Source of the DNA: an uncultured bacterium
GTDB lineage: Bacteria > Planctomycetota > Phycisphaerae > Phycisphaerales > SM1A02
NCBI GenBank assembly: GCA_903927725.1
Contig: CAIYOC010000143.1
Span: forward strand, 1 to 41,142
Direction: 5' to 3'
Length of the DNA stretch: 41,142 bases
Shown here: piece by piece, positions 3,146 to 35,611 of the stretch
How positions within the stretch are numbered: the first letter of the stretch is position 1
Layout: the number at the start of each line of letters is the position of its first letter
Made by a program: the position numbers and the translations under genes
Notes under the pieces: model-generated
What the model was told of the DNA's origin: nothing
Seen by the model: the letters and a program-made list of their open reading frames with translations, nothing else
Database searches by the model: none

Positions 3146-3151
3146 ATCGTA
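3146..3151 (-). promoter_or_regulatory. TANNNT -10-like hexamer (TACGAT) for the ATP-grasp gene
   Basis: TACGAT on the minus strand ends 6 nt before the ATG at 3139. There is no Shine-Dalgarno. Transcription would be expected to start on or next to the ATG, giving a leaderless mRNA. No good -35 box is visible. Confidence 0.55.
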
Positions 3152-3290
3152 CGACCCGGGCGCCAGATGCAGCGGGCCTGCGTCGCGCGGCAGCGACGGC
3201 ACGATCCAGCGCCTGGTGGGGTTGTTCGGGTGGGCGGGTGGCGAAGCGACATGAGCACGTGCAGCGCGACGAGGCCAAGGCCCGGCGCCC

Positions 3291-5537
3291 TCACCCGCTT
3301 CGGCGCAGCAACCGCAGGCTGTTGAGCACGACGCTGACGCTGCTGAGGGCCATGGCCGCGCTGGCGAGCATGGGCGGCAGCATCCAGCCGGTCCACGGCC
3401 ACAGCGCGCCGGCGGCCAGCGGGATCATCACCGCGTTGTAGCCGAAGGCCCAACACAGGTTCTGCTTGATCGTCCGCAGCGTGCGGCGCGCAGCACGCAC
3501 CGCGATCGGCAGCGCAGCAAGATCGCCGCGCATGAGCGTGATGTCTGCCGCCTCGAGCGCGATCGCAGCACCGCAGCCCATGGCGATGCCGACCTCGGCC
3601 TGCGCAAGCGCGGGAGCATCGTTGATGCCGTCACCCACCATGGCCACGCGCGCGCCACCATCCTGCAGCTCGATGATCGTGCGCGCCTTGTCGTGCGGCA
3701 GGACCCCGGCAATCACTCGATCGATGCCGACTTCGCGCCCAATCACGAGCGCAACCGACTCCCGGTCACCCGTCAGCATCACAGGCTCGATGCCCAAGGA
3801 TCGAAGTGACGCCACGGCGGATGCGCTGCCGGCTCGGGCCGCATCACGAAGCTGGATCGCACCGAGCACACGGTCATCCACCGCCACGACAGCGATCGTC
3901 GACGCATCGTCATCGCTCTCGGGAAACGGAAGGCCCACACCGGCGATCCATGCAGGCGTGCCCACGAGCACGCGCTGACCGCCGACCACCCCTTCGACGC
4001 CCTGCCCGGGATGGGCCACAACGTCGGTCGCCGGCTTGAGCAGGATCCCCCGCTCGTCAGCCGCGGCGACGATCGCCCTCGCCAAGGGATGCTCGCTTGA
4101 TCGCTCGACCGACGCAGCGACCGTGATCACCTCGCGCTCGGTGACCCCTGCGAATGCAGTCACGCTTGAGACCCGCGGTCGACCTTCGGTGATCGTGCCC
4201 GTCTTGTCGAGAACGACCGTCGTGACACGCGCGAGCGATTCCAGTGCGGCGCCGCCCTTCACGAGGATGCCCCTCCGCGCAGCCGCGGCCGTGCCGGCCA
4301 TGATCGCTGCAGGTGTGGCCAGCCCCATCGCGCACGGACACGCGATGATGAGCGTGGACACCATCGCCAGAAGGGCGCGCCCGATGCGATCCTCGGACGG
4401 GCCGAGCAGGATCCACATCGTGCCCGCCAGCAGTGCGATCGCCAGCACGATGGGCACGAACCGAGCGCTCACGCGATCGGCGAGGCGCGCGATCGGCGCC
4501 TTGCTGCCTTGGGCATCCTCGACGGCACGCACGACCTGTGCCAGCACCGTGGCACCCCCGACCTGCGTGGCCACCATGCGCAACGCACCCGCACCGTTCA
4601 CCGTGCCGCCAAGCACGCGATCGCCCGGCGTCTTGTCCACGGGCATCGGCTCGCCAGTGAGCATGGATTCATCGACGCTCGATCGCCCCGACTCGACCGT
4701 GCCGTCGACCGGCACCCGGCTGCCCGGGCGGACCAGCACGAGATCGCCCACGGTGAGCTCCGCGGCACCGACCTCGCACTCGATGCCGTCGCGCAGCACC
4801 ACCGCGCGGGGCGGCGCAAGGTCCACCAGCGACTCGATCGCGTGGCTGGCCGAGCGCGTGGCGCGCCACTCGAGCCACTTGCCGAGCGTGACCAGGACCA
4901 CGATCGACGCTGCGGCCTCGAAGTGGATGGGCGTACGGTGTGCATCGGCCGCACCCGCATCGCGCACCATGTTGGCGATCGACGGGACCAGCAGGACCAG
5001 CATCGACCAGAGCCATGCCACGCCGCTGCCGAGGGCAACCAGCGTGTCCATCGAGGTCATGCCGGACTTGGCCTGCCGCCAGGCACGAACCATGAACGGC
5101 CATCCGCAGATGGCCATGGTCGAGGTGCAGAGCACGGCCTGGATCCAGTCGGCTGCTGCGCCGTGCAGGAACGGCACGCTGCCGTGCGTCATCGCGATCG
5201 CCACGACCGGCGCCGCCAGCAGGATGCCCACGATCATCCGGGACTTCAGGTCGCGTCCCTCGGCTTCGCGCGCGGCAACCATGACGGCGCGCAGATCGTC
5301 GCCATCGCGCGGCACGATGGCGTGATAGCCGAGTCGTTCGACCGCGCGGGCGAGCACCTGCGGCGTGACGCCGTCTTCGCACTGGAGCATCGCCGTGCGG
5401 TTGGCGAAGTTGACGCTCACTTGCTTGACACCGGGTACGGCCGCAAGCCCACGCTCGATCTTGTGCGCGCATGCCGCACACGACATCCCTGCAATCGGCA
5501 GCGTGCGGCGTTCGTCGTTCGGGTCGGCCGGGTGCAC
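3291..5537 (-). CDS. copA: Copper-exporting P1B-type ATPase
   Basis: This inner-membrane ATPase pumps Cu(I) out of the cytoplasm. The 748 residues hold one N-terminal heavy-metal-associated domain with GMSCAAC (Cys20, Cys23), then paired transmembrane helices, an actuator domain (SMLTGEPMPVDK), the metal-translocation motif CPC at 400-402, the phosphorylation motif DKTGT with Asp444, an ATP-binding HP dipeptide (SSEHPLA) and the GDGINDAP hinge near 640. The CPC plus GMxCxxC pair indicates Cu(I)/Ag(I) rather than zinc or cadmium. The start is a GTG at 5537, only 9 nt after the acyltransferase stop codon, so co-transcription is possible. However, TAGACT at 5544-5549 lies 6 nt before the GTG and could drive a separate leaderless transcript. 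I see no CueR-type operator. Confidence 0.95.
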   Translation of the reverse strand: MHPADPNDERRTLPIAGMSCAACAHKIERGLAAVPGVKQVSVNFANRTAMLQCEDGVTPQVLARAVERLGYHAIVPRDGDDLRAVMVAAREAEGRDLKSRMIVGILLAAPVVAIAMTHGSVPFLHGAAADWIQAVLCTSTMAICGWPFMVRAWRQAKSGMTSMDTLVALGSGVAWLWSMLVLLVPSIANMVRDAGAADAHRTPIHFEAAASIVVLVTLGKWLEWRATRSASHAIESLVDLAPPRAVVLRDGIECEVGAAELTVGDLVLVRPGSRVPVDGTVESGRSSVDESMLTGEPMPVDKTPGDRVLGGTVNGAGALRMVATQVGGATVLAQVVRAVEDAQGSKAPIARLADRVSARFVPIVLAIALLAGTMWILLGPSEDRIGRALLAMVSTLIIACPCAMGLATPAAIMAGTAAAARRGILVKGGAALESLARVTTVVLDKTGTITEGRPRVSSVTAFAGVTEREVITVAASVERSSEHPLARAIVAAADERGILLKPATDVVAHPGQGVEGVVGGQRVLVGTPAWIAGVGLPFPESDDDASTIAVVAVDDRVLGAIQLRDAARAGSASAVASLRSLGIEPVMLTGDRESVALVIGREVGIDRVIAGVLPHDKARTIIELQDGGARVAMVGDGINDAPALAQAEVGIAMGCGAAIALEAADITLMRGDLAALPIAVRAARRTLRTIKQNLCWAFGYNAVMIPLAAGALWPWTGWMLPPMLASAAMALSSVSVVLNSLRLLRRSG

Positions 5538-5543
5538 CCGGGC

Positions 5544-5549
5544 AGTCTA
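5544..5549 (-). promoter_or_regulatory. TANNNT hexamer (TAGACT) before copA, overlapping the previous stop codon
   Basis: TAGACT on the minus strand ends 6 nt before the GTG start of copA. Its first three bases are the TAG stop of the acyltransferase gene, so the match could be partly coincidental. Confidence 0.4.
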
Positions 5550-6731
5550 GGACCCGCGCCGCGGGGCCACGATCATGAGCACGGCCTCGTAGCTGAGCGC
5601 TAGAAGCGCCGACACGATCACGAACGAGATCGAGAACCTCCCCACAGCACCCATCGGCAGGTCGCTGACGGCCCACGGAACGATCACGCACAGCGGCAGG
5701 TGCACGAGGTAGATCCAGAACGACGCATCGACGAGCCACCTGACCGCAGGTCGCGGCCGCGCGAGCACGCGTTCTGCGACGCCGATCAGTCCGAGGACGA
5801 GCAGCCAGCACGCCAGCGCACTCGTGGCCTGCGCGGCCAGGAGCACCACGGGTGCAGGCTGCTGGCCGTGACCCGTGACCACGAACCACGCGATCGCCGT
5901 CACGAGCGCCATCAGCAGCGCGACGAGCCCGAGCCCCAGGTGCCACCACCCGGTCCTGACCAGGTGTGCCACCATGCCGGCCTCGCGCCGGATGCACCAG
6001 CCGCCCACGAAGTACAGCGCGTAGCACGCCAGGATGGCCGGCGACACGAGGAACGAATGCGGCGTATCGATGCCTGGGCGGTGCATCGGCAGCATCGTGA
6101 CCGTCGTGAGCAAGGCCAGCGCCGGGACCAGCAGCCAACGCGCGCGACCCAGGCAGAGCGCATGCCGGGCGCGGGCAGCAAGCGACCGGAGCGGGGCTGG
6201 CGCCAGCGCCGTCACGGCGATCACCGGGAGCGAAAGGACCTGGAAGATGATCAGCACCTCGAGAAACCAGAGATGGATCGGCATCGGATTCGCCCACGGA
6301 TGCTTGATCGCGGCTGCGAAGAGCGCGGCCCGCGTGGCGTCATCCACCTGCTCCGTCTGCAGACGCACGAAGACGAAGGCCAGCATGGTGAGCGGGAAGA
6401 TCACTACCCACGACATGACCGACGGCAGCACGATGCGCTGCGCGCGGTTGCGGGCATAGCCCCACAGTCCGCGGCGCTCGATGAGCATCGCCGAGAAGTA
6501 GCCGCTCATCACGAAGAAGACCGGCATGCGGAAGGTGTGGATCGTGAGCACGACGAGCCCCGCCAGCGGGCTGCGCGCCGGATCGCGGAAGGGCCACGTG
6601 CCGTCCTCGGGCCCCTCGACGTAATTGATCGCCAGGTGCAGGACCACGCCCAGGAGCATCATCGCCCCGCGCAACGCATCGATGCCGTGGTGGCGTTCCG
6701 TCGGGATCGGAGGCGGTGGTGCGATCACCAT
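5547..6731 (-). CDS. Acyltransferase 3 family membrane protein (OpgC-like)
   Basis: This is a 394-residue multi-pass inner-membrane protein of the acyltransferase-3 superfamily, which transfers acyl groups to extracytoplasmic sugars, glucans or lipids. The N-terminus has the family signature: RHHGIDALRGAMMLLGVVLH with the catalytic-type His/Arg region, then FRMPVFFVMSGYFSAMLIERRG and RNRAQRIVLPS. About ten hydrophobic segments follow. The closest named relatives by pattern are OpgC/MdoC glucan succinyltransferases, but the acceptor is unknown. The ATG at 6731 is followed directly by a GTG at 6728, which lies 7 nt after TAGGAC (6736-6741) and might be the true start. It is divergent from the SET-domain gene (58 bp apart) and precedes copA by 9 nt. 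Confidence 0.85.
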   Translation of the reverse strand: MVIAPPPPIPTERHHGIDALRGAMMLLGVVLHLAINYVEGPEDGTWPFRDPARSPLAGLVVLTIHTFRMPVFFVMSGYFSAMLIERRGLWGYARNRAQRIVLPSVMSWVVIFPLTMLAFVFVRLQTEQVDDATRAALFAAAIKHPWANPMPIHLWFLEVLIIFQVLSLPVIAVTALAPAPLRSLAARARHALCLGRARWLLVPALALLTTVTMLPMHRPGIDTPHSFLVSPAILACYALYFVGGWCIRREAGMVAHLVRTGWWHLGLGLVALLMALVTAIAWFVVTGHGQQPAPVVLLAAQATSALACWLLVLGLIGVAERVLARPRPAVRWLVDASFWIYLVHLPLCVIVPWAVSDLPMGAVGRFSISFVIVSALLALSYEAVLMIVAPRRGS

Positions 6732-35567: not shown

Positions 35568-35573
35568 GCATGA

Positions 35574-35579
35574 AGTCTA
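35574..35579 (-). promoter_or_regulatory. TANNNT hexamer (TAGACT) for rutE
   Basis: TAGACT on the minus strand ends 6 nt before the ATG at 35567. It faces the hexamer of the divergent methyltransferase gene 21 bp away. Confidence 0.55.
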
Positions 35580-35599
35580 GGGATGCAGGCCGCGCTCGG

Positions 35600-35605
35600 T
35601 AGTCT
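35600..35605 (+). promoter_or_regulatory. TANNNT hexamer (TAGTCT) for the ICMT-like gene
   Basis: TAGTCT ends 6 nt before the ATG at 35612. No Shine-Dalgarno is present. Confidence 0.55.
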
Positions 35606-35611
35606 CCGCGC

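Follow-up and report, generated by a model that had tools for sequence, protein, structure and literature searches.

Leaderless promoters with a TANNNT -10 motif have been described in Deinococcus-Thermus (PMC12340547; Zheng 2011, PMC3160421), and most such genes of Deinococcus radiodurans have no -35 element (PMC12340547). In Mycobacterium tuberculosis, leaderless transcripts mapped by RNA-seq come from about a quarter of the genes and have TANNNT, no conserved -35 element and little TGn (PMC3898074); within the genes of this species, TANNNT is uncommon in all frames (PMC10653884). These statements hold for the portions of the four papers covered here. The DNA studied here is a stretch of 41,142 nucleotides (contig CAIYOC010000143.1, or C143; hereafter, the window) from G000, the draft genome of an uncultured planctomycete of the order Phycisphaerales, in which twelve genes have TANNNT ending 6 or 7 nucleotides (nt) before the start codon. 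We propose, with a probability of about 0.88, that this hexamer is the -10 box of a housekeeping sigma factor, which, without a -35 partner, would fire at the start codon and give rise to leaderless mRNA. The arrangement resembles that of Deinococcus-Thermus in the hexamer, its spacing, the lack of a usual -35 element and the coexistence with Shine-Dalgarno (SD) genes, and that of M. tuberculosis in the hexamer, the lack of a conserved -35 element, the scarcity of TGn and the share of leaderless genes, close to a quarter. It differs from the former in belonging to another phylum, and from both in being known from sequence alone.

In the proposed mechanism, the sigma factor would recognise T1, A2 and T6 of the hexamer, and, with 6-7 bases beyond it, transcription would start at the first base of the start codon. 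The usual distance from a -10 box to the start site fits such a spacer. Ribosomes would engage the 5' AUG or GUG directly, without an SD sequence, as leaderless mRNAs elsewhere are described to do in the portions of the literature covered, and in genes that need an SD leader this box would sit further upstream. It is from the DNA that we infer the transcription start, the sigma factor and the leaderless mode of translation alike.

G000 is a 2.51 Mb draft in 283 contigs, 93% complete; genomes G001 to G008, among them G004 and G008 which are sampled below, belong to the same genus. Its placement in Phycisphaerales is ours: ribosomal protein S2 of G000 shares 95-99% identity with eight records of metagenome-assembled genomes, of which six bear the titles Planctomycetota, Planctomycetaceae, Planctomycetia or Phycisphaerae, and 58-80% with records that are mostly from Phycisphaerales and Planctomycetota. 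The twelve sites named by the original prediction were all read directly and placed, as follows; a further hexamer, upstream of abgT, is listed last.

3146..3151, minus strand: TACGAT, 6 nt before ATG 3139 of an ATP-grasp-like gene (Pfam PF02955, barely over the cut-off); kept in G004.
5544..5549, minus strand: TAGACT, 6 nt before GTG 5537 of a copA-like P-type ATPase; TAGACT in G004 and TAAACT in G001, with changed spacer.
6778..6783, plus strand: TACCTT, 6 nt before ATG 6790 of a SET domain gene; alignments with relatives stop short of this start.
7365..7370, plus strand: TAGCCT, 7 nt before ATG 7378 of a DUF1573 gene; kept in G008, G001 and G004, with changed spacer.
13615..13620, minus strand: TAGCCT, 6 nt before ATG 13608 of a Gfo/Idh/MocA oxidoreductase, back to back with 13646; kept in five same-genus genomes.
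13633..13638, plus strand: TAGGCT, 7 nt before ATG 13646 of a periplasmic binding protein; kept in five same-genus genomes.
14786..14791, plus strand: TACAGT, 7 nt before ATG 14799 of an ABC ATPase; kept in five same-genus genomes.
28214..28219, minus strand: TACAGT, 6 nt before ATG 28207 of a gene labelled as a membrane protein in the original prediction, with no Pfam match; its only copy, in G008, is identical.
30803..30808, minus strand: TACTGT, 6 nt before ATG 30796 of an imelysin gene (Peptidase_M75); TACCGT in G004.
34128..34133, plus strand: TACGTT, 6 nt before GTG 34140 of a methyltransferase; TACCGT in G004 and G008.
35574..35579, minus strand: TAGACT, 6 nt before ATG 35567 of a nitroreductase family gene (first labelled rutE), back to back with 35612; kept in G008, with changed spacer.
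35600..35605, plus strand: TAGTCT, 6 nt before ATG 35612 of a PEMT/ICMT-like methyltransferase; TACCCT in G004.
23538..23543, minus strand: TACACT, 25 nt before ATG 23512 (abgT, SD word GAGGT); placed as for a leadered gene, a putative promoter.

The spacing is 6 nt at nine of the twelve starts and 7 nt at three, and the start codons are ATG in ten genes and GTG in two. The two back-to-back pairs have 37 base pairs (bp) between their start codons (13608/13646) and 44 bp (35567/35612). Genes were called by codon usage, blind to upstream sequence, so that starts were not picked with the motif in view; a gene was counted if any in-frame start within -200 to +150 of the called start had TANNNT ending 6 or 7 nt upstream. 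The caller gives 31 genes in the window, and exactly the same twelve, no others, have the hexamer, which bears out the claimed excess. The accompanying estimate that about 1 start in 100 would have the hexamer by chance was far too high: only 1 of 3548 other ATG, GTG or TTG triplets on both strands has TANNNT at this distance. The window contains 30 TANNNT on both strands, twelve of them at these starts. The five genes said to have good SD sequences indeed have SD words and lack the hexamer at 6/7 nt (FIST 407, GGAGG; abgT 23512; 23654, AGGAG; 32338, GGAGC; cutC 36951, GGAGC).

The pattern extends over the genome. In a 258 kb sample of G000 (the window, L002-L004 and L094-L113; 194 genes), 57 genes have the hexamer at 6/7 nt in frame; the two out-of-frame positions yield 1 and 5 sites, and other spacing pairs 4.4 sites each; for spacings of 4 to 9 nt the counts are 2, 2, 36, 21, 7 and 7. 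In G004 the figures are 56 of 213 genes versus 1 and 1. About a quarter of the sampled genes in this genus have TANNNT 6-7 bases upstream of the start. Throughout the G000 genome there are 256 occurrences of TANNNT-N6-ATG versus 42 with N12 spacing and 67 of the reversed pattern, and the nine genus members have 196-285, 37-56 and 55-112, respectively. The original prediction would have been abandoned had such a genome-wide peak been missing; it is present both in the G000 sample and in the whole-genome counts. As the first list of starts was drawn up with the hexamer in view, the pattern might have been put down to chance or to start picking in an AT-poor genome, an explanation refuted by the frame controls, the spacing controls and the whole-genome counts, to which we give practically no weight.

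Comparison of orthologues points the same way. We regarded as informative the same-genus orthologues whose 40 upstream nt are at most 90% identical without gaps, including pairs shifted by insertions or deletions, and dropped more similar pairs; from other genera, no informative orthologues were found. The start codon and TANNNT at 6/7 nt are kept in 28 of 28 informative orthologues, none of which has TANNNT at any other spacing from 2 to 29. When sequences are aligned on the hexamer, identity is 0.50-0.71 in the six bases downstream of it and 0.79-0.93 in its three middle bases; at T1, A2 and T6 it is 1.00 by construction, as only kept hexamers were compared, and at the base two upstream of the hexamer it is 1.00 as well.

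Two observations on the genomes compared may be added here. In each of the nine genomes of the genus, the aligned part of a distant Gfo/Idh paralogue match (G000:C87:11295-11828 and its counterparts in G001-G008) contains a TAG codon in frame; G005 has two, and G035 has the codon too. The S2 genes of L036, L037, L064 and L072, from close or fairly close planctomycete metagenome-assembled genomes, are at odds with the titles Singulisphaera, Bacteroidia, Limnohabitans and Chitinophaga, probably through a labelling error.

The hexamer behaves as a promoter would with respect to gene order. Pooling G000, G004 and G008, we found that the TA-led class is made up largely of lead genes: the hexamer precedes 67 of 160 genes in divergent orientation and 0 of 27 at contig edges. 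For co-directional genes, grouped by their distance to the gene before, the counts are 33 of 126 beyond 40 nt, 17 of 58 at 11-40 nt and only 6 of 71 up to 10 nt. This bears on another explanation, namely that the hexamer is an RNA element within a longer 5' leader, such as a binding site for S1 or another non-SD ribosome site, with transcription starting further upstream; indeed, in the part covered here, Nakagawa 2017 was unable to tell leaderless mRNA and RPS1 binding apart for its one planctomycete. A ribosome site, however, should also serve genes internal to operons, where the hexamer is scarce, and in SD lead genes the hexamer is found further upstream instead. Among 43 such genes there are 14 TANNNT sites at 16-39 nt upstream and 11 at 40-103 nt, versus 1 site in 21 internal SD genes, abgT being an example in the window (see above); as the hexamer is often found there, the choice between the two modes would follow the position of the -10 box. 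Both genes have the hexamer in 7 of 35 divergent pairs of G000, with starts 37-85 bp apart, and in 11 of 40 of G004, with starts 17-59 bp apart; for pairs without hexamers the medians are 180.5 and 198. At 17-85 bp, two leaders would not fit unless each promoter were inside the other gene. We consider an RNA element very improbable, the more so in view of the counts on the antisense strand of genes (see below). With both-hexamer starts as near as 17 bp in G004, two predicted promoters would overlap face to back.

The remaining properties of the upstream regions, in the same pooled set, largely fit a -10 box. Five-base SD words occur in frame within 60 nt of 2 of 123 hexamer genes (4 and 3 in the other frames), versus 64 of 300 other genes (7 and 2). 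The original prediction saw no evident -35 box at most of its sites, and we agree: the best match to TTGACA averages 2.63 at hexamer genes (n=123) and, when the position is shifted, 2.57 and 2.77, and TGn shows no excess over control. GC3 rises from 0.70 upstream of the hexamer start codon to 0.78-0.85 downstream, and GC2 falls from 0.68 to 0.52-0.56, so that codon periodicity starts at these codons. In 143 genes with neither signal, hexamers one base off at 6/7 nt show little excess ([CG]ANNNT, 11 versus 7.0; AANNNT, 3 versus 0.6; TANNN[CG], 3 versus 1.8).

In 35 of 74 genes with spacer 6 in G000, G004 and G008, the hexamer opens with a stop codon in frame (TAG or TAA); as G is also common as the third base at spacer 7 (0.55 versus 0.43), this shows no link between hexamer and stop. 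CarD assists promoters in Actinobacteria and Thermus. As a helper here it was considered and set aside, since a stand-alone CarD was not found in the genus: the sole PF02559 match of G000 lies in a frame of 1120 amino acids (aa), the size of Mfd, and the five other genus genomes with a match have it in frames of 1113-1298 aa. Across 99 genomes of the phylum the matches are in mostly Mfd-sized frames, with a few in shorter ones. Of 30 16S loci from relatives, 21 include the anti-Shine-Dalgarno end GGATCACCTCC and the remaining nine are partial; the 16S gene of G000 itself was looked for in the draft genome and not found.

How far the mode extends depends on the control. Relative to N12 spacing, TANNNT-N6-ATG is in excess in 40 of 41 relatives (z 3.5 to 12.4), the sole exception being G039 (417 versus 413). 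Relative to the reversed pattern, the genus, where both controls agree, and a few family members show a clear excess, and much of the order does not. In several family and order members the two controls disagree, as in G012, with 311 sites versus 329 reversed and 158 with N12. Because of this disagreement beyond the genus, the order-wide claim, which rests on the N12 control, is the weaker one. Outside the order the distribution is patchy: of 94 planctomycete genomes, 20 have z of at least 5 and 41 are below 2, in a test that has less power in AT-rich genomes. The same peak at 6/7 nt is found in the positive controls, D. radiodurans MP1 (5 of 38 genes; frames 5, 1, 2) and Thermus thermophilus pTT27 (8 of 51; frames 8, 1, 0), and in a plasmid stretch of Phycisphaera mikurensis the hexamer precedes 4 of 42 called genes.

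Within the single family that comprises G000, G004, G013, G017 and G021, a higher leaderless share goes with a lower Shine-Dalgarno share. With the hexamer share taken as in-frame minus mean out-of-frame counts for starts within 60 nt, the hexamer/SD shares are 0.26/0.12 in G000, 0.22/0.14 in G004, 0.26/0.04 in G013, 0.07/0.22 in G017 and 0.06/0.31 in G021; the samples f2, f33 and f31 have 0.05/0.25, 0.10/0.15 and 0.06/0.17. Over these eight samples the Spearman correlation is -0.93, not corrected for kinship, and both signals occur in the same gene once in 998 genes. Small samples were called with a borrowed codon model, and for G023, G012, G010, G009, G037, G032 and G039 they are too small for the frame test to judge (G020, with 2 genes, was unusable). 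Two genera of the one family thus have opposite signals, G013 (L183-L185, L222-L223), with nearly no SD signal, and G021 (L186-L187, L219-L221), with the reverse.

Inside genes, TANNNT is rare. A shuffle of codons within genes was discarded as a null, since it carries a codon-junction effect (TANNNT 0.11, but also TAN0T 0.30 and TAN6T 0.34), and a stricter one was adopted, in which synonymous codons are swapped only if the amino acid, the first base and the first base of the next codon agree. The coding DNA of G000 then has, on both strands, 87 TANNNT versus 293 expected (0.30), with control words at 0.98 (TAN2T), 1.02 (TAN4T), 1.01 (TAN3A), 0.97 (TAN6T) and 0.76 (TAN0T); in other words, the hexamer is about three times rarer in G000 genes than in a matched shuffle, and words whose spacing differs by one base give ratios of about 1.0. 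Of all 242 TANNNT of the G000 sample, 57 are at the predicted leaderless starts and 85 within genes; the other 100 lie elsewhere in non-coding DNA. That both strands of genes are depleted is a further point against an RNA element, which would leave the antisense depletion unexplained. Selection, as judged from these counts, has probably removed the hexamer from gene interiors, as it may suffice as a promoter on its own.

The ratios elsewhere are 0.34 (G004), 0.52 (G008), 0.41 (G013; 0.36-0.37 with more sequence), 0.40 (G014), 0.46 (G023), 0.50 (G032), 0.53 (G017), 0.54 (G012), 0.60 (G010), 0.62 (f2), 0.64 (G037), 0.71 (G021; 0.65-0.66 with more sequence) and 0.78 (G039), and 0.26 in the P. mikurensis plasmid (9 versus 34 expected). 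Outside the order they are 0.55 (f33), 0.59-0.70 (f31) and 0.94 (f30, G063), and Escherichia coli has 0.91. In the eight larger samples the ratio correlates with the hexamer share at Spearman -0.86. Rarity of TANNNT in genes is thus common to G000 and M. tuberculosis (PMC10653884, in the part covered), though measured on different scales, whereas the Deinococcota plasmid stretches MP1 and pTT27 show no strong depletion (0.94 and 0.88, versus 0.30). An earlier report that -10 motifs are under-represented in coding regions of 24 of 42 bacterial genomes (PMC1939733) used another motif set and another null, and a word search of its main text gave no planctomycete.

Several observations weigh against a leaderless -10 box, or complicate it. 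Spacings of 8-11 nt in G000 are above background (7, 7, 5 and 6 versus about 2 each), and some mRNAs may therefore carry a leader of a few bases. The caller's first-choice start is the hexamer codon in six of the twelve window genes; in the other six it is another in-frame codon, with the hexamer start in the same frame within about 160 nt. Near 21 of 123 hexamer genes there are four-base SD words in frame (9 of the 123 have them at the hexamer start itself), and the other frames give 7 and 8, so the exclusion of SD sequences is limited to five-base words. C at -1, considered as an initiator signature, had to be rejected as evidence: it precedes the start codon in 72% of hexamer genes and likewise of SD genes (72%), and in 63% of the remaining genes, a context shared by all gene classes in G000, G004 and G008. 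Finally, depletion is not simply tied to leaderless use, given the Deinococcus and Thermus values and the low ratios of G014 and G023 despite few hexamer genes (both small samples).

Part of this would be accommodated if the hexamer were a -10 box, as proposed, but some of the genes had a leader of one to a few bases, or a true start codon nearby downstream. With a spacer of 6 or 7, classes may differ by one base; the shoulder at 8-11 nt and the caller's preference for other codons point in this direction, as do the 143 lead genes that have neither signal, in which 15 TANNNT sites lie 8-15 nt upstream of the called start. It is opposed by the start codon being kept in all 28 informative orthologues and by coding periodicity setting in at the hexamer start, and we think it rather unlikely. 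It also shades into the leaderless reading, because the M. tuberculosis work, in the part covered, counts positions -5 to +5 as leaderless (PMC3898074). Leaderless transcription from the hexamer is supported by the fixed spacing, the frame, the lead genes, the exclusion of five-base SD words, the close divergent pairs, the periodicity and the Deinococcus/Thermus peak, with the transcription start itself deduced.

The mechanism is already known; what is new, within the literature searched, is Planctomycetota as a lineage. The original prediction supposed that this mode had not been worked out here, and we found no account of it in Planctomycetota in the literature searched, save one planctomycete assigned to 'leaderless mRNA and/or RPS1' in the covered part of Nakagawa 2017; the GeneMarkS-2 survey lay outside the search and may list planctomycetes. 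The positive groups named in the text covered of Zheng 2011 (PMC3160421) do not include Planctomycetes, and 8 of its 20 'Other Bacteria' are unnamed there.

If the -10 reading holds, a phylum of unusual cell biology would be added to the leaderless-rich lineages. More tentatively, and at somewhat less than even odds in our view, a lone TANNNT in Phycisphaerales may be a self-sufficient promoter that sets the start of both transcription and translation; family members may have flipped between leaderless-dominated and SD-dominated states, and each flip may have re-tuned the genome by purging or tolerating TANNNT in genes. The depletion controls in the Deinococcus and Thermus stretches, G014 and G023 speak against such flips and re-tuning. 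To gene finders, the hexamer indicates the position of starts in the genomes of these uncultured bacteria, and the depletion of TANNNT within coding sequence is suggested as a sequence-only gauge of how readily a lone -10 box fires. One family in which the leaderless share is about 0.26 (G000, G013) or 0.06-0.07 (G021, G017), with opposite use of SD sequences, amounts to a natural experiment, in which the driver of the switch between leaderless and SD initiation becomes testable.

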